From NCBI GenBank assembly GCA_947476645.1, contig CANJRM010000025.1, positions 1 through 32,527 on the forward strand: a DNA stretch of 32,527 nt. The letters run 5' to 3'. The stretch comes from Bacteroidota bacterium. Its GTDB lineage: Bacteria > Bacteroidota > Bacteroidia > Chitinophagales > LD1. The translations under genes were made by a program, and so were the position numbers. The notes under the pieces were generated by a model. It had not been told where the DNA came from. It made no database searches and saw nothing but the letters and a program-made list of their open reading frames with translations. Shown here in pieces: positions 4,614-12,415 of this stretch. Numbering within the stretch: position 1 is the first letter of the stretch; each line of letters begins with the position of its first letter.

Positions 4614-6575
4614 TTAATAAACCATTCCCTGATTAATAAGCTGCGAAGCAGTGGTAGCACATTGGTCTTCGAGCGTTATGTGTTTCTGCTGTGCCTGTTT
4701 TTGCATCATGTTCAACCAGTTTTGGTTTTTGCGCATGCGCTCGTCATACATAAAAATTTCTTTCTGCCGTTCAGCATACCACAAAGCTGTTTTGGTAACT
4801 GCCGCTTTTGTTTCCTCACCGTTTTCTCTGGCACCTTTTTCAATTTGAGCCATCCATTCGGCATTGCTTGTTATTTGCTTTTCATAATCGTTTGCGCTTA
4901 ACGCTGGCGTTGGTGCAGAAACTACAATCGGATCCGACAAATCAGAATCTCTGCCTTCAGTATTTTTTACAACGAAATATTCAGTCCCCATCGATTTAAA
5001 AATTTCATGATTGCTGAATTTTTTGAAAGAAACATTTCCGAGGAAAGAATCGAGCAATTGAAATTGTTTGTCGCTTAATATTAAAATGGAAGGAGTATCT
5101 GCACAATAAGCGTAAGCCAGTTCTGTAAGCCGGTGCTCCTCTTTAATATTTTCAAAATGGCGACTTAAATAAAAAGGCAAACTTGGTGGTTCCCATCGGC
5201 TGTTACCTATAAAGACCGAACATTCTTTTGATTCATTTTCAAGCGAAGCCGCCAGTTTTTTATTGCAGTTTTTAAACTCATCAATAAAAGGTAAAGCAAT
5301 AACCCAAACTAAGATTTGCAAAACTATAGCGTATCCAAAAACGCCTTGTGAAACTTTGCCGTGCTGGCTCAAATAAATACTTCTGAGCGTAACAAGCAGA
5401 AGAGAAATTCCAATTCCTGTGAAAACGATTTTTTGCGACAACGGTAATTTCAAATACAGCGAAGCGCATAGTATTGCTAACGCAATTAAAACCTGAAGCA
5501 CGAAGTGAATGATTACGAAAACTTTCTTCGGCATTTCGTTACTGCTTAAACGCTGAGCCAGCATGAAAGCAAACGGAATATGAGCCGCCAACACATAGCT
5601 GGGTAATTTACTTGGCGATAACTCATAAATAAACCATCCTGCAAAAAACCACGCTCCGAAAATCAGCGCGTGCTCTTTATCCTTGAAAAAATTCTTTGCA
5701 GTAGCGTAAAACGCACCGGGAATAAACATCAAATAAGGAAAGAAGAAAACAACAATCAGCAGCAAATGAACTCCGGGTGGTCCCGTTTGCCCGAGCACAC
5801 TTCCGTTTATTCGCTTTAATATATACCAGTCATACATCCACTTTAAAAATACACCGCCATCATTCAACGTAGTTAAGTGGCACCAGTAAGCAAAAGGAAT
5901 GATCGAGAGCGGTAAGAAAAACCAAGGATGAAGCAGCAGTAAGTTTTTTCGCAGCGGATGCAACAGCAAAAGTACTGCACCAAAAATGCCTGTGAAAATG
6001 ATTACAGGCGGCCCCTTGGTAAGCAATGCCGCGGCAAACGAAATCCAGAATACTAAAACGAAAATTTTCTTTCGCTGCAGCAAAACAAAAAGTATAGAGA
6101 TAGCGCAAAGTGTGGTAAAAAAAAGCAGAGTAGAATCAACCACCGAAACTTTTGCAAGCACTGGAATTAAAACAGAAGTGCTCAAAATTACCGCAGCAGT
6201 AAAACCTTGCTTTCGTCCGAATAAAGAGCCACCTGCGAAAAACACAAGCAGATAAGTGAGCACAGTAAACACCGCAGCAGGAAAACGTAGCGCAAACTCG
6301 TTTACGCCAAACAATTTATACGACAGCGCAATGTTCCAGAAATGCAGCGGTGGTTTGCGGTGAATTTCGCTCCACATGGCATGTGGCACCACCCAGTTAT
6401 TTGTCTTCAACATTACATTGCCAAACGAAGCATAAGCACCCTCATCCTGATCCCAAATACTGATACTACCGTTATGAATAAATGCGGTAAGAATTACGAA
6501 AACGAAAAAGGCGGGATAAATAAATTTTGTGTCGCTTATAACTTTCGAATACCTGTCAATGATTTTGGTGTACAT
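4614..6575 (-). CDS. GT39/ArnT-like polytopic membrane glycosyltransferase
   Basis: 653 residues. Many hydrophobic helices fill residues about 18-440, followed by a soluble C-terminal region of about 210 residues rich in charged and Ala/Gln-rich helix. Near the first loop, WDQDEGAY (41-48) supplies the D-E pair conserved in the first periplasmic loop of PMT/ArnT-type transferases. IHRKPPLHFW and the long run of hydrophobic helices agree with that family, which moves a sugar from a polyprenyl-phosphate carrier onto protein or lipid A on the outer face of the inner membrane. The acceptor and sugar are unknown. The C-terminal tail (about 580-653) has no recognisable domain. Start: the only ATG before the first membrane helix. 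Confidence 0.8.
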   Translation of the reverse strand: MYTKIIDRYSKVISDTKFIYPAFFVFVILTAFIHNGSISIWDQDEGAYASFGNVMLKTNNWVVPHAMWSEIHRKPPLHFWNIALSYKLFGVNEFALRFPAAVFTVLTYLLVFFAGGSLFGRKQGFTAAVILSTSVLIPVLAKVSVVDSTLLFFTTLCAISILFVLLQRKKIFVLVFWISFAAALLTKGPPVIIFTGIFGAVLLLLHPLRKNLLLLHPWFFLPLSIIPFAYWCHLTTLNDGGVFLKWMYDWYILKRINGSVLGQTGPPGVHLLLIVVFFFPYLMFIPGAFYATAKNFFKDKEHALIFGAWFFAGWFIYELSPSKLPSYVLAAHIPFAFMLAQRLSSNEMPKKVFVIIHFVLQVLIALAILCASLYLKLPLSQKIVFTGIGISLLLVTLRSIYLSQHGKVSQGVFGYAIVLQILVWVIALPFIDEFKNCNKKLAASLENESKECSVFIGNSRWEPPSLPFYLSRHFENIKEEHRLTELAYAYCADTPSILILSDKQFQLLDSFLGNVSFKKFSNHEIFKSMGTEYFVVKNTEGRDSDLSDPIVVSAPTPALSANDYEKQITSNAEWMAQIEKGARENGEETKAAVTKTALWYAERQKEIFMYDERMRKNQNWLNMMQKQAQQKHITLEDQCATTASQLINQGMVY

Positions 6576-6632
6576 CTCACAATTTGAGTGGCTAATCTAA
6601 AAGTATTCAAATACTAAGCTCAAACTGTAACA

Positions 6633-6662
6633 CAAACAGCCCCAATCTCTCGGGGCTGTTTG
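6633..6662 (-). terminator. Strong hairpin, possible terminator
   Basis: A perfect 11-bp stem (CAAACAGCCCC paired with GGGGCTGTTTG) closes an 8-base loop. It lies between the stop of the carboxypeptidase-regulatory-like gene and the start of the GT39-like gene, where a terminator is expected. There is no long T run after it on either strand beyond the TTTG in the stem, so its efficiency is uncertain. Confidence 0.5.
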
Positions 6663-6678
6663 CATTCGGTTGTTTGTT

Positions 6679-6694
6679 CCCGCAGCATTGCGGG
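6679..6694. repeat. Small GC-rich palindrome CCCGCAGCATTGCGGG
   Basis: Six-base arms (CCCGCA/TGCGGG) flank GCAT. It lies 42 bases from REP-like copy A in the same intergenic stretch. It may belong to a second dispersed palindrome family or be part of a longer REP-containing module; only one copy is seen here. Confidence 0.35.
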
Positions 6695-6735
6695 ATGGCA
6701 CAAAGTACCGGAGGTGGATGCCTGCTTTTGTCTCA

Positions 6736-6761
6736 GCAGGGTCTCCGCTTCGGGACCCTGC
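6736..6761 (+). repeat. REP-like palindrome, copy A
   Basis: A 26-base element with 8-bp outer arms GCAGGGTC/GACCCTGC, an unpaired T, a 3-bp inner stem CCG/CGG and loop CTT. It is preceded by GTCTCA and followed by GTT, flanks shared with copies C and D. It sits alone between the GT39-like and carboxypeptidase-regulatory-like genes, 3 kb from the RAYT. Confidence 0.8.
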
Positions 6762-6799
6762 GTTCGGCTGTTCCATTTACTCATCCACTCATTTGCTCA

Positions 6800-7699
6800 T
6801 CACTTCGCTGTCATCTCAATCTCCACCTTCGTATTCTGTCCCTGCTTCACAACCACCTCCGTCAACTCCACATCATTATACCCATCGGCTTTGCATTGCA
6901 CAGTATATGTTCCGTGTTTAATCGCCACTATTTTTAGGAACCCTTTCTTATTCGTAACACCGCTTATTCCCAACTCCACTAGCTTCACCTCTGCTCCGGC
7001 TATCGGGTTACCATCTTTGTCAGTTACAAATGCGCCTATTTTCGTATGGTCTGTTTTAGGGTCAACAACAATGCGCGCATTATCATAGTTCTGCACAAAC
7101 TCAGTATTGCCATCATTAAACACCACCACCAATTTATCCATACGGTTTTTCAAAAATTTCTTCACCTCACTTACAGCCGCATTCAAATTTGCAGTATCCG
7201 TTTTTCTTTCACTGCGTTTTGTTCGGGGTTGCGGCACTAATCCTTCAAAATCATCAACAGCATTTTTAAAATCAGTAAGCATTAGAGGAGTTATTCCATA
7301 ATCAGCTAAAGCAACCACGTTCGTGTTCGCTGCCTCATAAATGTTTCGGCAGTTCGAAATCAAATCATCATCCTTTGCTTTTTGCAAACCGCTGAGCGTA
7401 AAACGCATACTCTCTTTTAGAGTAGTCATTTCTTTTTCATCAGCATAAGCAAACACAATTCCTGCCAATGAATTTCCAAACTCGGCTAAGTTCTTCTTCA
7501 TCGCATTCTTGTTCGCGGTATAACCTTTTATGTTCATCGCTTGCCGCGTGGCAAGCGATGTTATATTCGCGTTCTTTGCGCTCAATAAAATAAGTGAATT
7601 TTTAAACCCCGTGTTGGCATCTACAATACCTTGGTTGGCTTTGCATTCGGTTTCAACTACACGGCTCATGTTGAACCCGGCCATAGTTATAGCATTCAT
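6800..7699 (-). CDS. Carboxypeptidase-regulatory-like domain protein with helical N-terminal region
   Basis: 299 residues from ATG 7699. The C-terminal ~80 residues form a CarboxypepD_reg-like Ig fold (IGAFVTDKDGNPIAGAEV, NKKGFLKIVAIKHGTYTVQC, GYNDVELTEVVVKQGQNTKV), common in Bacteroidota surface proteins. The N-terminal ~200 residues are mostly helical and unrecognised. No signal peptide is visible from this start. The frame stays open for another 41 codons upstream (7700-7822) with coding-like composition (ITAYFTWATEKNNAVERGKW) but no ATG, GTG or TTG, so the true N-terminus is probably longer and either mis-sequenced or frameshifted. A hairpin at 6633-6662 may end its transcript. Confidence 0.7.
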   Translation of the reverse strand: MNAITMAGFNMSRVVETECKANQGIVDANTGFKNSLILLSAKNANITSLATRQAMNIKGYTANKNAMKKNLAEFGNSLAGIVFAYADEKEMTTLKESMRFTLSGLQKAKDDDLISNCRNIYEAANTNVVALADYGITPLMLTDFKNAVDDFEGLVPQPRTKRSERKTDTANLNAAVSEVKKFLKNRMDKLVVVFNDGNTEFVQNYDNARIVVDPKTDHTKIGAFVTDKDGNPIAGAEVKLVELGISGVTNKKGFLKIVAIKHGTYTVQCKADGYNDVELTEVVVKQGQNTKVEIEMTAK

Positions 7700-7850
7700 A
7701 ACATTTTTGTTTTGTGCCCACTTCCCTCTTTCAACTGCATTGTTTTTTTCAGTTGCCCAAGTAAAGTAAGCGGTTATTAAAAAATGTTGATTTGCTTCAT
7801 CTATGGTATTCTTGTTTTGATTTTATGTTTTGATTCTGCTTATTTTTCAT
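7700..7850 (-). pseudogene. Probable missing 5' part of the preceding gene, separated by a frameshift
   Basis: The 41 codons directly upstream of ATG 7699 encode a protein-like stretch (NTIDEANQHFLITAYFTWAT, then EKNNAVERGKWAQNKNV) and are preceded by TAA at 7823-7825. An ATG at 7850 in the neighbouring frame reads MKNKQNQNIKSKQ and then hits TGA after 17 codons. One base lost, or two gained, near 7815-7830 would fuse the two into a protein of about 349 residues. A purine-rich GGATTGAGA precedes ATG 7850. This could be a true mutation, an assembly error in an A-rich stretch, or an unusual start. Confidence 0.4.
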
Positions 7851-7909
7851 TCTCAATCCTAAATCCTACTTCCTCTTTTTCCCTTTCGATTACTAAACGT
7901 GTACCAGGT

Positions 7910-8023
7910 TTATTTTATTGTGTGTTCATACAAAAATTTTAACGCTTCTTTAAATTTCGGTTGGTATTGGCTGTAAAAATGCATTGCATTTTCCAGCTGA
8001 GTTGCGGAATTTGTAGGTTGCAT
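7910..8023 (-). CDS. Possible 37-residue small protein
   Basis: The frame runs from ATG 8023 to TAA 7910. The product starts MQPTNSATQLENAMHFYSQY and ends LKFLYEHTIK; it is amphipathic, probably helical, with no signal or membrane segment. It lies between the seven-repeat cargo gene and the carboxypeptidase-regulatory-like gene on the same strand. I do not recognise it. It could equally be a remnant or chance; composition is the only support. Confidence 0.28.
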   Translation of the reverse strand: MQPTNSATQLENAMHFYSQYQPKFKEALKFLYEHTIK

Positions 8024-8083
8024 AGCAGCTATTGTATTTTCATTCTCAAATTCTCACATCCGCTAATTCGCTAATTGTTTCTC

Positions 8084-9727
8084 TCACTCCTTCACCACCT
8101 TCTTCGTAAACAACTCCCCGTTTTGTGTAACGGTAATAAAGTAGAAGCCACCCGGCAGGTAGCTTAAATCAAGCACCTTGGTATAGTTACTACTCAGGTT
8201 GGTTTCTTCTCTTTTATAAATCAGTTGCCCAAGCGCATTAGTAATAGTAAACGTAGCTTCATGTATATTCTCTCCCTTCAATGCAATTGATAAATCACTA
8301 CTAAACGGGTTGGGGTAAACCTGTATTTGTCTTGTGTCTTGTGTCTCATGTCTATCATCTATCCCCGTTACTGTATCCATACAAAACTTCATTATCCAGT
8401 AATCGTAACTACTATCCCATGCCGCTTGTGTTTTATAACCGCCTATACCTGCCTTACTCGTATTAGCTACTGCGTAGCAGCCATCTGCAGTTTGCACGGC
8501 ATAGCCGCGTTCATCAATGCCCATAGTAAATATCGTTTTATCCCATTGTTTTAATCCGTTGGAATCTATTTTTAAAACCCAAGTATTTTGTGAGCCCAAA
8601 CTAAGTTCTGTTCTTATATAATTTGAATCAATTGAAGCCGGATTGTATGTATCACCTGTTAGTAAATATCCGCCATCATTTGTTTGTGATGTGCCTACTG
8701 GATACGCTCCCCCGCTATATCCTGTTTCCCAAACTTTGTTTCCAGAATTATCTATTTTAACTAACCAAAAAGGGCCGTAATCAATTCCTTTATTGCCGCT
8801 TGTTAATGAGCCAGTACTTCCTGATAACATGTATCCCCCATTAATTTCTATAATATCATGTAGTTTATCTGTACCCCCCCCCCCAAATCGCTTATCCCAC
8901 TCTTTCTGTCCCGCTGAATCAATTTTCACCACCCAGTAATCTGTTGTAGAGTGGTTAATAGTAGTATCCCAGTTATCTTCCGTTTTATCACCTCCTGACC
9001 GAGAGAAAGAAAACCCACCCAAAATATAACCTCCATCCAATGTTTGCTCAACCGTCCACAAATCATCATCATCAGTTCCTCCAAATCTTTTATCCCACTG
9101 CTTTAACCCCATGGAATCTATCTTTACTACCCAGTAATCAAAATAAACACCTGTAGCATCTCTGTTTGTTTCCGTCTTATCTCCGCTTATTCCTGAACCC
9201 GACCTGCCGCCCAATATATAACCGCCTTCACGGGTATTGACAAGGCACCACAATAAATCATCACGATTGCCTCCAAATGTCTTATCCCACTGCTTATTAC
9301 CTTGAGCATCGGTTTTTACTACCCAATAATCCCAGCCACCTCTGCCAGGCTCTGTTTTGTCTCCCCCTGCAGCTCCACCCGAAAAACCACCCAAAATATA
9401 ACCTCCATCTAAACTCGGTTGCAAAGCAGTTAACGCTCCACCGAATACTCCTCCAAATCGTTTATCCCATTCTTTGTTTCCTGTTGAATTAACCTTTACA
9501 ATCCAAAAATCTTCCGTGCCTATATTTGCCTGTGTTTTATCTCCGCTTATTCCCGATGCAGAACTACCGCCTAAAATACACCCCCCATCTATTACTTGTT
9601 TTAGCGACCATAACTCTTCAAAATCAGTTCCCCCATAGCGTTTATCCCACTGTTTATGAAAATAGGGCTGAGCGTTCAAAATTTGAATGTTCAACACAGT
9701 TAATAATAAAACGAGGTTCGTTTTCAA
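8084..9727 (-). CDS. Secreted seven-repeat (propeller-like) protein with T9SS type A sorting domain
   Basis: 547 residues. It starts at TTG 9727, one codon after an in-frame TAA (9731-9733), so no upstream start is possible; the leader MKTNLVLLLTVLNIQILNAQ is a good signal peptide. Seven repeats of about 55-65 residues follow, each with K-x-W-D-K-R-F-G-G, DGGYILGGxS, GDKTE and DYWVVKID. The number suggests a seven-bladed beta-propeller (inference). Residues about 465-547 are a T9SS type A sorting domain (VYPNPFSSDLSI, NALGQLIYK, LPGGFYFITV), so the protein should cross the outer membrane by T9SS. An 11-G run lies at residues 282-285 in repeat 5. The ligand or activity is unknown. Confidence 0.85.
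   Translation of the reverse strand: MKTNLVLLLTVLNIQILNAQPYFHKQWDKRYGGTDFEELWSLKQVIDGGCILGGSSASGISGDKTQANIGTEDFWIVKVNSTGNKEWDKRFGGVFGGALTALQPSLDGGYILGGFSGGAAGGDKTEPGRGGWDYWVVKTDAQGNKQWDKTFGGNRDDLLWCLVNTREGGYILGGRSGSGISGDKTETNRDATGVYFDYWVVKIDSMGLKQWDKRFGGTDDDDLWTVEQTLDGGYILGGFSFSRSGGDKTEDNWDTTINHSTTDYWVVKIDSAGQKEWDKRFGGGGTDKLHDIIEINGGYMLSGSTGSLTSGNKGIDYGPFWLVKIDNSGNKVWETGYSGGAYPVGTSQTNDGGYLLTGDTYNPASIDSNYIRTELSLGSQNTWVLKIDSNGLKQWDKTIFTMGIDERGYAVQTADGCYAVANTSKAGIGGYKTQAAWDSSYDYWIMKFCMDTVTGIDDRHETQDTRQIQVYPNPFSSDLSIALKGENIHEATFTITNALGQLIYKREETNLSSNYTKVLDLSYLPGGFYFITVTQNGELFTKKVVKE
8874..8884 (-). repeat. Homopolymeric G11 tract within coding sequence
   Basis: On the coding strand eleven G bases in a row encode the Gly run in RFGGGGTDK (residues 282-285). 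The matching place in repeats 1-4 has only two glycines (FGG). Such tracts slip during replication; a change not divisible by three would cut the protein before its sorting domain. Confidence 0.85.
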
Positions 9728-9730
9728 GGT

Positions 9731-9856
9731 TTATAATTTCACCAGTTTGCCTGTAAGGGTTTCACCTGTGTTTGTTTTTATTTGATAGTAATATACTCCG
9801 CTGTTTTCTTTAGCAGCATCCCACACTATTTTTCCGTTGGTATTGGTAAAATACGT
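9731..9856 (-). pseudogene. Orphan 3' end of a T9SS cargo gene
   Basis: Read from 9856 to the TAA at 9731-9733, 41 codons encode TYFTNTNGKIVWDAAKENSG and VYYYQIKTNTGETLTGKLVK then L. This is the tail of a FlgD-Ig/T9SS type A sorting domain: N-G-K-x-V-W-D, S-G-V-Y-Y-Y, final GKLVKL. Upstream, the frame runs through REP-like copy B (AAGSRGGDPAG) and on to the RAYT stop codon, with no body of a cargo gene. It ends one codon before the TTG start of the seven-repeat gene and is in the same frame as both the RAYT and that gene. Probably the remains of a gene destroyed or displaced by the RAYT/REP insertion. Confidence 0.65.
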
Positions 9857-9860
9857 CCCC

Positions 9861-9886
9861 GCAGGGTCTCCGCCTCGGGACCCTGC
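9861..9886 (+). repeat. REP-like palindrome, copy B, downstream of RAYT
   Basis: It has the same 26-base element as copy A with loop CCT (outer arms GCAGGGTC/GACCCTGC, inner CCG/CGG). It lies 66 bases past the RAYT stop and points opposite to copies C and D, so it forms an inverted pair with copy C around the transposase gene. Its outer flanks (GTCCCC before, GGC after) differ from the GTCTnA/GTT flanks of the other copies. Confidence 0.8.
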
Positions 9887-9952
9887 GGCAGTAATAGACC
9901 AATCCCTCCACCCTGCGCGAATAAATGACCAAAACCAAAAAGCAAAAACAAC

Positions 9953-10576
9953 CTAATTGTATTCATCAGGATACCATATTTCTCTATAATCTCGCGGTTT
10001 AAAATGCTTCACCACACCCAATTCATAAAATGATGCACTGCTGTGTTCGTAATCAGTAAACTCATCAACTAAATTCCATTTCCCTTTCACCGGGTTATGG
10101 TGAATATAATCCAACTTTTGCGAAACAAATTTATCACTCACCACATACTTCGCATCAAACGATGGTTCAAACACGCGGTGCTTTTGTCCTTTCTTTTTAT
10201 CCGTTTTACTAACCCCTTCGGCTAACCGCTGCAAAATCCTTATGGTTAACGCAGGGTCTCGAAACGAAGACCCTGCTGAGACTTCTTCGCTTTGCAACTG
10301 TAGCCGCTTAATTATTTCATAAGCCATAAAACGCTTTCCATTAGCTACAAGTTTATTGAGATTTCTCTCCTCGTTTCTCAAATGAATTATAGCGTGAAAA
10401 TGATTGGGCATTATTACATAGCTAAGAATATCAGCTTCATCTTTTACTTTTAAATAGTCAAACCAGCTATACACTAAGTCATAGCCATTCGCCATTTCAA
10501 ACAGCGGCAACCACTCAAAACAAGTGAAAGTGATATACCAGTCTTTTTCATAACTATGTTGCGTACGAACCGACAT
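9953..10576 (-). CDS. REP-associated tyrosine transposase (RAYT), IS200-like Y1 family
   Basis: 207 residues from ATG 10576. The HUH motif HFH lies in MPNHFHAIIHL (residues 59-61) and the likely catalytic Tyr in LDYIHHNPVKGKW (residue 157), the pattern of Y1_Tnp/RAYT proteins, which nick single-stranded palindromes. An in-frame ATG at 10642 would add 22 residues, but these are encoded by REP copy C and look non-native (SKQGLRLGTLRF), so I chose 10576. Residues 101-109 (AGSSFRDPA) are encoded by REP copy D lying inside the gene without breaking the frame; they fall in the linker between the HUH motif and the Tyr helix. The gene is a single copy here, flanked by inverted REPs B and C. No tnpB partner is present. 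Confidence 0.85.
   Translation of the reverse strand: MSVRTQHSYEKDWYITFTCFEWLPLFEMANGYDLVYSWFDYLKVKDEADILSYVIMPNHFHAIIHLRNEERNLNKLVANGKRFMAYEIIKRLQLQSEEVSAGSSFRDPALTIRILQRLAEGVSKTDKKKGQKHRVFEPSFDAKYVVSDKFVSQKLDYIHHNPVKGKWNLVDEFTDYEHSSASFYELGVVKHFKPRDYREIWYPDEYN
10251..10276 (-). repeat. REP-like palindrome, copy D, inside the RAYT gene
   Basis: Outer arms GCAGGGTC/GACCCTGC are identical to the other copies. Read on the minus strand, the inner stem is TCG/CGA with loop TTT instead of CCG/CGG with CTT or CCT, a compensatory C-G to T-A change that keeps pairing. Flanks GTCTCA and GTT match copy A. It is read in frame as AGSSFRDPA within the transposase. Confidence 0.78.
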
Positions 10577-10608
10577 GGAATAAAAATAACTAAAAGCTAC
10601 CTCAAAAC

Positions 10609-10634
10609 GCAGGGTCCCGAGGCGGAGACCCTGC
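10609..10634 (-). repeat. REP-like palindrome, copy C, upstream of RAYT
   Basis: On the minus strand it has arms GCAGGGTC/GACCCTGC, inner stem CCG/CGG and loop CCT, preceded by GTCTAA and followed by GTT. It lies 32 bases before the chosen RAYT start and is inverted relative to copy B. Confidence 0.8.
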
Positions 10635-10734
10635 TTAGACAATCCTCTTCATTCCCTCCACCCTCCGCGTGTCATTACAGTTCCTTTGTTCACTTTGCTG
10701 CTTTGTGGTTGACCTTCCTTGCTCTGCCGCGCTC

Positions 10735-11051
10735 TATTATATCCTCAAGAAATGCTCACGCATTCCTTCCGCATCATCACAAGTTTTTCCCGCACGTTCA
10801 CGCGTTCTTAATTAATATACACAAGCAGTCAGGAAATACTCACTAGTTTCTTCCGCATGGTCACGCGTTCAAAAGAAATAGACACAAGTAGTTAAGAAAT
10901 GCTCACGTGGTTTCTCCGCACGTTCACGAGTTCTAAAGTAATAGACACCAGTAGTCAGGAAATGCTCACGGGTTTCTTCCGCATCATCACAAATTTCTTC
11001 CGCACGTTCATCTTTAGTAACGAAATAAAGGCAGTCTTTCCAAGAATACAT
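10735..11051 (-). pseudogene. Decayed repeat-protein reading frame
   Basis: From ATG 11051 the frame reads MYSWKDCLYFVTKDERAEEI and passes through the 63-bp repeats. The first 60 codons are open, then TGA (10869-10871) falls where the unit above has AGA (VYFF-stop against VYYFRT). The next unit has TAA in the same place (VY-stop-LRT), and the last ends LRI with two stops. Frame and residue pattern are kept across all units, so this looks like a former coding array broken by stops rather than random repeats. No function is recognised; the 60-codon front piece might still be expressed. Confidence 0.45.
10739..11030 (-). repeat. Degenerate tandem repeat, 63-bp unit, four copies
   Basis: On the plus strand, units begin at about 10739, at 10819, 10882 and 10945. 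The two middle ones are exactly 63 bases (10819-10881 and 10882-10944); the outer two carry an extra internal CCGCAtcatCAC segment and are about 80-85 bases. Shared blocks are AGGAAATGCTCAC, TTTCTTCCGCA, GTTCACG and ACACAAGTAGTC. Read on the minus strand all units keep one frame, with consensus RERAEExCDDAEExREHFL then TTxVYYFRT. The stretch from 10643 to 11059 holds no intact gene. Confidence 0.75.
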
Positions 11052-11059
11052 TAAAGGAT

Positions 11060-12415
11060 TTAGAACGAAGTCCCCAACTTCAAATAAATACCCGCGCCAT
11101 AGTAATGCTTAGGAGCGCACAACCCAATCAGGTTGGGTGTGCCGAGCGAAAAATCAAAATGCTTCCAGCATTTGGCTATTTCAAAACCCAGATTGAATTT
11201 GCTGTAACCACCCGCGCCTGCGCTCATGCTTACAATCAAATCCTTCTGAATAAAATAATTGGCTTTCACATAACCATACACATAATATTTCGGCAGGTAA
11301 CGATACTGCAAACCAAAACTCAACACCAGTTTATCATGCAACAAAGGTTTCGAAAAAACCACGTTCACACTAAACGGCATAAACAGCGAATACTGATTGT
11401 TTGATTTGGTAGGTAAATAAGAGCGCACCGCACTATCCAATTTCAGCGTGTCAAAAGTTTGACTGCTGAACGTAGTTAAGTCTGGCAAAACAAAACCTGC
11501 AAAGTGCGCAGTCTTCACAGCCGAATAATTCACAGGGTTCTTACGGTAGGTAGTGTAGCCAATATCGGCTATATCAAATGTCAGCTTCCATTTGTTGCGG
11601 TTCATAAACCCGATATGAAAATCACCCGAGCCGCCAATGCCGTTGAGTTCCCCGAACTTCGTAGCTCCTTCCTTTGCTGCATTAAAAGTTAAGTCGTAAT
11701 TAAAATCCAGATACTCGCCATCGGCTGCGGTGTAAATACTCGCGTGTCCCGTTCTTATTTCCTGCTGATTAAACACCTGCAAAAACGAAAGTCCTAAACC
11801 CACATCCATTTGATAACTGCCGTAATCAAATTTCTTTTTCACACCAGCCGAAACCTGATTATACATGTAATTGTAGAAACGAATATTGCTCAAATCGGCA
11901 CTGTCACCTTCAAAACGCGCGTTGCCATAAAACACAGTTTCAAACGCTTCTTTACCTGCACTCAACTCGCGCATCTGTCGGTGATTGAAAGTGAAAAAGA
12001 AAGTGCAATCCAGTTTCTTCACATAATGGCGAAGCGTGTAGCCGGTCTTCAACTGGTCTTCAAATCGTATGCGGTCGTTTATTCGTCCGTCTATTCTATC
12101 AATAAGCCCCTTCGAAATATTTTGTTTGAACAAGAGCGCAAAACCTAAACCCGCAGGAACTTCTTTTGAGTTGGCATCGTAATCAAAACATATGGTGCTT
12201 CTCCAGGTAGCACTATCTCTGAAATCTTCATTAAAAAAATAATTGATACCCGAATTAGTATAGTTATAAAGTCGCGCGTTGTTCTCGTTAGTCGCAAACT
12301 TTATCTTTTTAGTTTTTACAACTTCGGTAGAATCAGCGGCAGATAGAAACAAACTGAGGAAACTGAAAAAGAAAATTGCTACGCTTAATCGTGTATAATT
12401 AAAATTCTTGCCCAT
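11060..12415 (-). CDS. DUF5723-like outer-membrane beta-barrel protein
   Basis: 451 residues with an N-terminal signal peptide (hydrophobic core about 10-25, cleavage near LSAADS) and many alternating aromatic/polar strands (HYVKKLDCTFFFTFNH, KFDYGSYQMDVGLGLSFL, KLVLSFGLQYRYLPKYYVYG), ending in KLGTSF with a C-terminal Phe typical of BAM-inserted barrels. Length and pattern fit the DUF5723 family of Bacteroidota, role unknown. It follows the large lipoprotein gene by 44 bases on the same strand, so the two are probably one transcription unit and may form one surface complex. The family name is from memory of the pattern. Confidence 0.7.
   Translation of the reverse strand: MGKNFNYTRLSVAIFFFSFLSLFLSAADSTEVVKTKKIKFATNENNARLYNYTNSGINYFFNEDFRDSATWRSTICFDYDANSKEVPAGLGFALLFKQNISKGLIDRIDGRINDRIRFEDQLKTGYTLRHYVKKLDCTFFFTFNHRQMRELSAGKEAFETVFYGNARFEGDSADLSNIRFYNYMYNQVSAGVKKKFDYGSYQMDVGLGLSFLQVFNQQEIRTGHASIYTAADGEYLDFNYDLTFNAAKEGATKFGELNGIGGSGDFHIGFMNRNKWKLTFDIADIGYTTYRKNPVNYSAVKTAHFAGFVLPDLTTFSSQTFDTLKLDSAVRSYLPTKSNNQYSLFMPFSVNVVFSKPLLHDKLVLSFGLQYRYLPKYYVYGYVKANYFIQKDLIVSMSAGAGGYSKFNLGFEIAKCWKHFDFSLGTPNLIGLCAPKHYYGAGIYLKLGTSF

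Follow-up and report, generated by a model that had tools for sequence, protein, structure and literature searches.

Four hairpins of one plan lie in contig CANJRM010000025.1 of a draft Bacteroidota genome (GenBank GCA_947476645.1), which we analysed over its full 32,527 nucleotides (the window), and two of them enclose a gene for a putative transposase. The question raised by this locus is whether the hairpins are repetitive extragenic palindromes (REPs) that are mobilized by the product of that gene, a REP-associated tyrosine transposase (RAYT, or TnpAREP), and what unit such an enzyme would move. How REPs spread, and which unit moves, is poorly understood, and this hairpin/RAYT partnership, a little-studied variant, may show how such repeats copy themselves. 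The data reported here indicate that the locus is very probably a REP/RAYT system, in which the hairpins serve as single-stranded DNA (ssDNA) substrates for an HuH-tyrosine enzyme whose gene lies between two of them. The features concerned are as follows, with scores from the covariance model R1 described below.

6736-6761, plus strand: REP-like hairpin copy A; head GTCTCA at 6730-6735; 61.7 bits
9861-9886, plus strand: REP-like hairpin copy B; head GTCCCC at 9855-9860; 56.5 bits
10251-10276, minus strand: REP-like hairpin copy C; head GTCTCA at 10277-10282; covarying inner stem TCG/CGA; 59.2 bits
10609-10634, minus strand: REP-like hairpin copy D; head GTCTAA at 10635-10640; 59.5 bits
9953-10576, minus strand: RAYT/TnpAREP gene of 207 codons; NHFH (HuH), YIHHNP (catalytic tyrosine), HSSA tail
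9855-10640, minus strand: REPtron, the RAYT between outward-facing REP heads at both ends, a layout also found in relatives

The hairpins and the gene between them

The original prediction, made from the letters of the sequence, had placed four hairpins here, and their coordinates and strands proved correct, as did the plan of the 26-mer, in which the arms GCAGGGTC/GACCCTGC pair over 8 bp, one T is left unpaired, and an inner stem of 3 bp closes a loop of 3 nt. A copy in which both partners of the inner stem had changed to TCG/CGA does exist, but it is the third in the series (10251-10276) rather than the fourth, to which it had been assigned; the fourth (10609-10634) is identical to the second (9861-9886) across the whole hairpin. 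The flanks GTCTNA before and GTT after the hairpin occur, as had been noted, at the copies beginning at 6736, 10251 and 10609, with GTCCCC and GGC in their place at 9861.

The window contains the 8-mer GCAGGGTC 10 times, the arms of the four copies accounting for 8, against an expectation of 0.37, and a count of 10 was reached by none of 100 shuffles. Folded as ssDNA, five copies including the four of the window gave free energies of -10.8 to -15.4 kcal/mol (z scores of -4.8 to -7.4), with the predicted fold of copy C favouring the neighbouring T as the bulge. A scan of positions 6500-11100 against Rfam at E<=1 returned no match at the hairpins, the sole match being to RF02706 (E 0.38; 19 bits against a cut-off of 86). 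Copy A lies 38 nt beyond the 3' end of an open reading frame (ORF) at 6800-7699 on the minus strand, and the only ORF that it overlaps has 80 codons and was judged spurious. Copy B is downstream of the RAYT gene and copy D is 32 nt upstream of its start codon, and in both cases the head points away from the gene.

The gene at 9953-10576 encodes a RAYT. Read from its ATG (the ORF list begins it at an upstream TTG), the frame is open and the catalytic motifs of an HuH-tyrosine (Y1) enzyme are kept. The protein matched the NCBIfam model REP_Tyr_transpos (NF047646) with an E value of 1.3e-21 and 77 bits, just below the cut-off of 80, and Pfam Y1_Tnp with 16.9 bits (cut-off 23). An AlphaFold2 model computed from a 12-row alignment had a predicted local distance difference test score (pLDDT) of 91.5, and its top Foldseek match in the PDB was 4er8, a TnpAREP with its REP hairpin (E 1.8e-7; template modelling scores 0.56/0.68), an entry that a PDB profile search with the RAYT also returned (7.9e-6).

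Copy C lies in frame within the RAYT ORF, a point absent from the original prediction, and lengthens the protein by 14 residues that are missing from all 11 of the aligned relatives. These residues (approximately 100-113) cover the loop between helices 73-100 and 108-120 together with the start of the second helix, and the mean pLDDT falls to 72 in that loop. The spacing from the HuH motif to the catalytic tyrosine, readable in 51 of the 52 proteins of the RAYT clade defined below, is 82-85 residues in 49 of them (84 in 43), while it is 98 in the window protein and 96 in that of locus L187. The L187 insert was considered as a second intragenic REP and rejected, its DNA being unlike the REP of that locus. 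The window gene is a RAYT with an in-frame REP, and it appears to lie outside the subclasses in which such an arrangement has been described.

Hairpin copies and RAYTs across genomes

In the genome of the window (G000), a 3.56-Mb draft that is 89.9% complete, a pattern with exact arms found nine copies and its reversed control none. R1, built from these nine, found 17 places at E<=0.01 (150 of 216 candidates were scored), and 20 rows at E<=1, one of which is the same place on the other strand. The support looked for in the original prediction was borne out in part, by these 17 places and by up to 44 R1 matches, some of them longer variants, in a congener. Compared with ORFs of at least 80 codons, nine of the 17 places overlap none, one is within the RAYT, and seven overlap ORFs of 80-194 codons that we took to be spurious. 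Inverted pairs, which had also been anticipated, are present, one in G000 at C93:4182-4259 and three with an 18-nt spacer in the genome G010.

All nine copies have the trinucleotide GTC starting six nucleotides ahead of the hairpin foot, so that the head reads GTC[TC]NN; GT[AG]G at the hairpin foot is not the head in these copies. The outer arms of the nine were fixed by the search, but two of the three inner pairs change on both sides, and pairing is 100% as compared with 28-52% for slid partners. The inner stems seen by eye in G000 are CCG/CGG, TCG/CGA, GTG/CAC, GCG/CGC and CCA/TGG, and several copies are degenerate. The pattern GCAGGGTC N10 GACCCTGC, in which the inner 10 nt are left free and inner pairing is thus not selected for, matched 41 copies when run over 18 genomes of the genus, 8 of which contain them, whereas its control pattern matched none. 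The inner 3+3 positions of these are Watson-Crick paired in 37 copies (six types), contain a wobble in three and a mismatch in one, and the bulged base is T in 39, A in one and G in one. A further set of 34 copies, drawn from several genomes and selected because they pair perfectly, shows changes on both sides at 8 of 11 pairs. The proposal that covarying REP-like hairpins form a family associated with a RAYT, and that their head is not GTAG, is thus supported.

Relatives of the RAYT were taken as the best 80 of 160 from a scan of genome contigs. A tree built from 91 RAYTs separates 52 of them, as a clade (SH-aLRT 100), from 39 distant ones; the window RAYT groups with that of G014 (95), and near it are RAYTs of Pelobium and Mucilaginibacter, the REPs of which share or nearly share the GCAGGGTC arms. 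A strict hairpin template found a copy within 300 nt at 21 of 40 close RAYT loci as compared with 1 of 40 distant ones, and matched pairs with heads outward at 15 of 40 and 1 of 40, respectively, the opposite arrangement being seen at one close and two distant loci. Strict templates overlook degenerate or longer forms, and among ten close loci without a strict hairpin that were folded, several show variants with longer inner parts. The heads at relatives are mostly GTCC, GTCT, TTCC or TTCT and are [GT]TC[CT]NN-like, with others such as CCCC and CTCT.

Two further genes came to light in this survey. A more distant RAYT, 37% identical (L074, G015:C9), lies between unbulged perfect palindromes beginning GTGTCGGATG at 1365-1388 and 2014-2037, another type of REP. 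The window genome also has a second Y1 transposase gene (L030, G000:C70:5184-5528; a 163-codon frame with 85 bits to Pfam Y1_Tnp), which has no match to the window RAYT at E<=1e-5.

The presence of hairpins was then compared with that of the RAYT, and counts are given as both/RAYT only/REP only/neither. For 99 genomes, with R1 hits and RAYTs recognized by E<=1e-19 to P0001, these were 11/5/8/75 (p 1.7e-6). Outside the genus they were 4/5/2/70 (p 0.001), and with the window genome removed and G015 taken as negative, 9/5/9/75 (p 4e-5); G015 is RAYT-positive in this test and negative in the following one. For 298 genomes of the order we used a wider hairpin model, R2, and a RAYT profile, with a clade RAYT defined by at least 135 bits, a limit chosen after viewing the scores and lying between 140.9 and 128.7. 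The counts were 31/4/38/225 (p 9e-19), or 25/4/31/220 outside the genus (p 2e-16) and 24/11/9/254 when at least five REP hits were required. At least 8 of the 298 genomes had supplied hairpins for the training of R2, and some training loci are perhaps among the others; removal of these 8 left 23/4/38/225 (p 5e-14), and removal of the genus as well 20/4/31/220 (p 4e-13). The R1 and R2 counts over many genomes are lower bounds, since the filters were stricter and the number of candidates was capped, and the p values overstate independence because the genomes share ancestry. Hairpins and the RAYT clade co-occur, but not exclusively; the genome G009 has 26 R1 hits without a clade RAYT.

Such genomes, with REPs and no RAYT, would fit a window locus that is a relic, with its RAYT domesticated or idle and its old copies kept as mRNA 3'-end or terminator hairpins. 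The small number of copies in the genome (17), the degeneracy of several, and the fact that copies in G000 share next to no flanks are in keeping with this. On the other hand, several identical hairpins and a REP inside the RAYT fit movement, and the frame of the RAYT is open with its catalytic motifs intact, so that we regard a relic as quite unlikely.

Traces of movement around REP heads

When 30 clade loci were each compared with themselves, 13 of them proved to have repeated segments of at least 70 nt that contain a REP, 22 in all, and 20 of the 22 end within 6 nt of a REP head, where approximately 0.18 would be expected for a head placed anywhere; the offsets were taken to the nearest REP, which favours small values in segments with several REPs (L194). 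Similarly, when 316 pairs of REPs from 29 genomes or loci were oriented head first, similarity extended over the 3' flank alone in 75 pairs, over the 5' flank alone in 6, over both in 4 and over neither in 231, with 11 genomes or loci leaning to the 3' side and one to the 5' side. In relatives, duplicated segments run from a REP head past its 3' side.

Units of REPs and RAYT also recur at other sites in relatives, clearly in G017 and less completely in G014, G086 and G094. In G017 a RAYT-bearing unit is present in C10 and C6, 90.7% identical over 732 nt and with unrelated flanks on both sides. The unit of G094 recurs at 97-98.6% in C4, C32 and C36, sharp at the upstream head and with differing downstream ends; that of G086 recurs at 85% in a broken alignment, and that of G014 at 100% over 114 and 141 nt, at contig ends. 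The edges of repeated units are approximately 2-9 nt outside the heads, and truncated units at L250 and L253 continue straight into the next head. The window genome has solo REPs, one pair and a single REPtron only.

In the REP/RAYT system that we favour, the RAYT would bind the folded strand through its 8-bp stem, flipped T and short inner hairpin, with the [GT]TC[CT] head serving as a guide, and would cut just 5' of the head and again on the 3' side of the hairpin, where the position of this second cut would vary. The released strand would then be joined elsewhere, probably at the lagging strand. Solo REPs, REPs with neighbouring DNA and whole REPtrons would represent one reaction with differing 3' cuts. 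It is possible, although we would stop short of calling it probable, that in this clade the REP head is the fixed end of a one-ended ssDNA reaction with a variable 3' cut, that REPtrons move autonomously and have not been domesticated as genes in single copy, and that REPs are their shortest products.

The head-anchored duplications around RAYT genes might instead arise when replication slips or switches template at a strong hairpin, with the hairpins themselves still REPs spread by the RAYT. The hairpins are indeed stable and many of the duplications are tandem, and palindromes are described in PMC3733652 as stalling replication. However, the shared sequence breaks off at the head and not at the opposite foot of the hairpin (the 75 pairs as against 6, and the 20 of 22 segments), the REPs concerned lie on both strands, whichever way replication may run there, and the two G017 units with unrelated flanks are not tandem slippage. 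Slippage thus seems a rather unlikely source of the head-anchored duplications.

Several results weigh against a RAYT-driven, head-anchored reaction. Of 263 genomes without a clade RAYT, 38 carry at least one R2 hit and 9 at least five, which also contradicts the prediction that the hairpins are confined to genomes with this RAYT. A strict hairpin is missing at 19 of the 40 close RAYT loci, and a Mantel test of REP arm against RAYT distance over 25 loci, which also used a strict hairpin template, gave r 0.146 (p 0.063), so that co-divergence of the two sequences is not demonstrated. An aromatic W of other RAYTs is F in the window RAYT. Within the window genome 1 of 45 pairs shares a 3' flank and 44 share neither flank; G010, the REPs of which pair across a constant spacer, alone gives 35 of the 75 3'-only pairs; and the second copy in G014 depends on contig ends. 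An empty site for the window REPtron was not found, synteny with G014, G015 and G009 stopping at 11061-11062, and a conserved 3' cleavage site or dinucleotide, which the guide model predicts, was not found in the flanks by eye.

The clade supplies sharp natural junctions, with segment edges at the head, variable 3' edges and repeated units, together with a head that resembles a guide but is not GTAG. This opens the guide model, and likewise the question of which unit moves, to testing.

Other rearrangements were seen at these loci. Tandem duplications of a REP and approximately the first 34 RAYT codons occur at L173 (1414-1778) and L208 (1409-1799), loci from two genomes that bear different names, and both stop at the same codon. 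Codon 34 was considered as a hotspot for partial copies and rejected, L250 ending at codon 42 and L253 near the end of the gene. Direct repeats of 667 nt (92%) lie at 646-1312 and 2219-2878 of L188, on either side of the RAYT gene. At L090 (G010:C215:17200-19900) a REP pair is followed by approximately 1.6 kb with two small genes, which we take to resemble a HigB/HigA-type toxin-antitoxin pair, and then by a REP with nearly the same spacer. In the window, tandem repeats of approximately 63 bp occupy 10745-11027, between the RAYT unit and a DUF5723 gene, and synteny ends just past them. On the other side, 8084-9727 (minus strand) encodes a protein of repeat units with a Por secretion C-terminal sorting domain, and what looks by eye like the remnant of a second such domain, at approximately 9740-9855, ends at copy B.

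Relation to known REP/RAYT systems

Membership of the GTAG REP superfamily was rejected on the strength of the invariant GTC and the head GTC[TC]NN. The CGTC-tagged superfamily, which is reported to have no dedicated transposase and to occur in several phyla including Bacteroidetes (PMC3733652), was another candidate, given that the head here contains GTC and that some copies read CGTC. However, as described in that paper, CGTC families almost invariably have AT at the first two stem positions, loops of 4-5 nt and tails that are mostly CCA, and flank no tyrosine transposase gene, whereas our hairpins begin with GC, have a bulged T and a 3-nt loop, and flank a RAYT. We therefore rejected this assignment, which we consider highly improbable.

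A near counterpart is TnpAY1 subclass 2.6 (RAYT group 5). According to PMC6006769, this subclass is mostly from Bacteroidetes and is flanked by atypical structures that lack GT[AG]G and have copies elsewhere in the genome, features shared by the family described here, as are the SS tail motif (49 of 52 clade proteins) and a HuH-tyrosine spacing with a median of 82 there and 84 here. The published NH[LIV]H motif is found in 47 of the 52, the comparison having been made by published motif descriptions. In contrast, the window RAYT reads NHFH, FE and YIHHNP at the positions of the published motifs NH[LIV]H, WQ and YIH[QN]NP, the hairpin is strong and bulged where the structure there is called 'weaker', and a REP within the window RAYT and duplicated units in relatives set our family apart from that account. 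Because atypical structures beside Bacteroidetes RAYTs are reported there, the kind was already known, and to suggest an undescribed family goes too far where the kind is concerned; on this hairpin family itself, no title or abstract was seen among those listed by our searches of a mainly open-access literature.

Subclass 2.4 (RAYT group 4) shares the in-frame REP between the HuH and tyrosine motifs and is present in Bacteroidetes. In PMC6006769 an in-frame REP is called unique to 2.4, yet some members of 2.8 are said to carry one. REPs of 2.4 have GT[AG]G and its proteins have no SS tail domain, whereas the window RAYT has the tail and the head of its REPs is not GT[AG]G, and membership was rejected on both counts.

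For the group 2 REPtron of E. coli (PMC8266576, 4er8), the account includes cleavage of REPs by RAYTs in vitro. That system and ours have in common the fold, unpaired base(s) in the stem, a head 5' of the hairpin and REPs around the gene, but the head is GTAG there and [GT]TC[CT] plus two nucleotides before the foot here, and the guide-contact region has W-Q there and F-E in the window RAYT. The IS200/IS605 elements (IS608, ISDra2) share the HuH-Y1 fold, at lower Foldseek ranks, a hairpin with an unpaired base and, as in some relatives here, recurrence of the unit; unlike them, the family has inverted outward-facing REPs at both ends and many solo hairpin copies. The locus thus represents a Bacteroidota form of the known REP/RAYT partnership, and what appears to set it apart is its head, an intragenic REP outside subclass 2.4, and the repeated units in its relatives.

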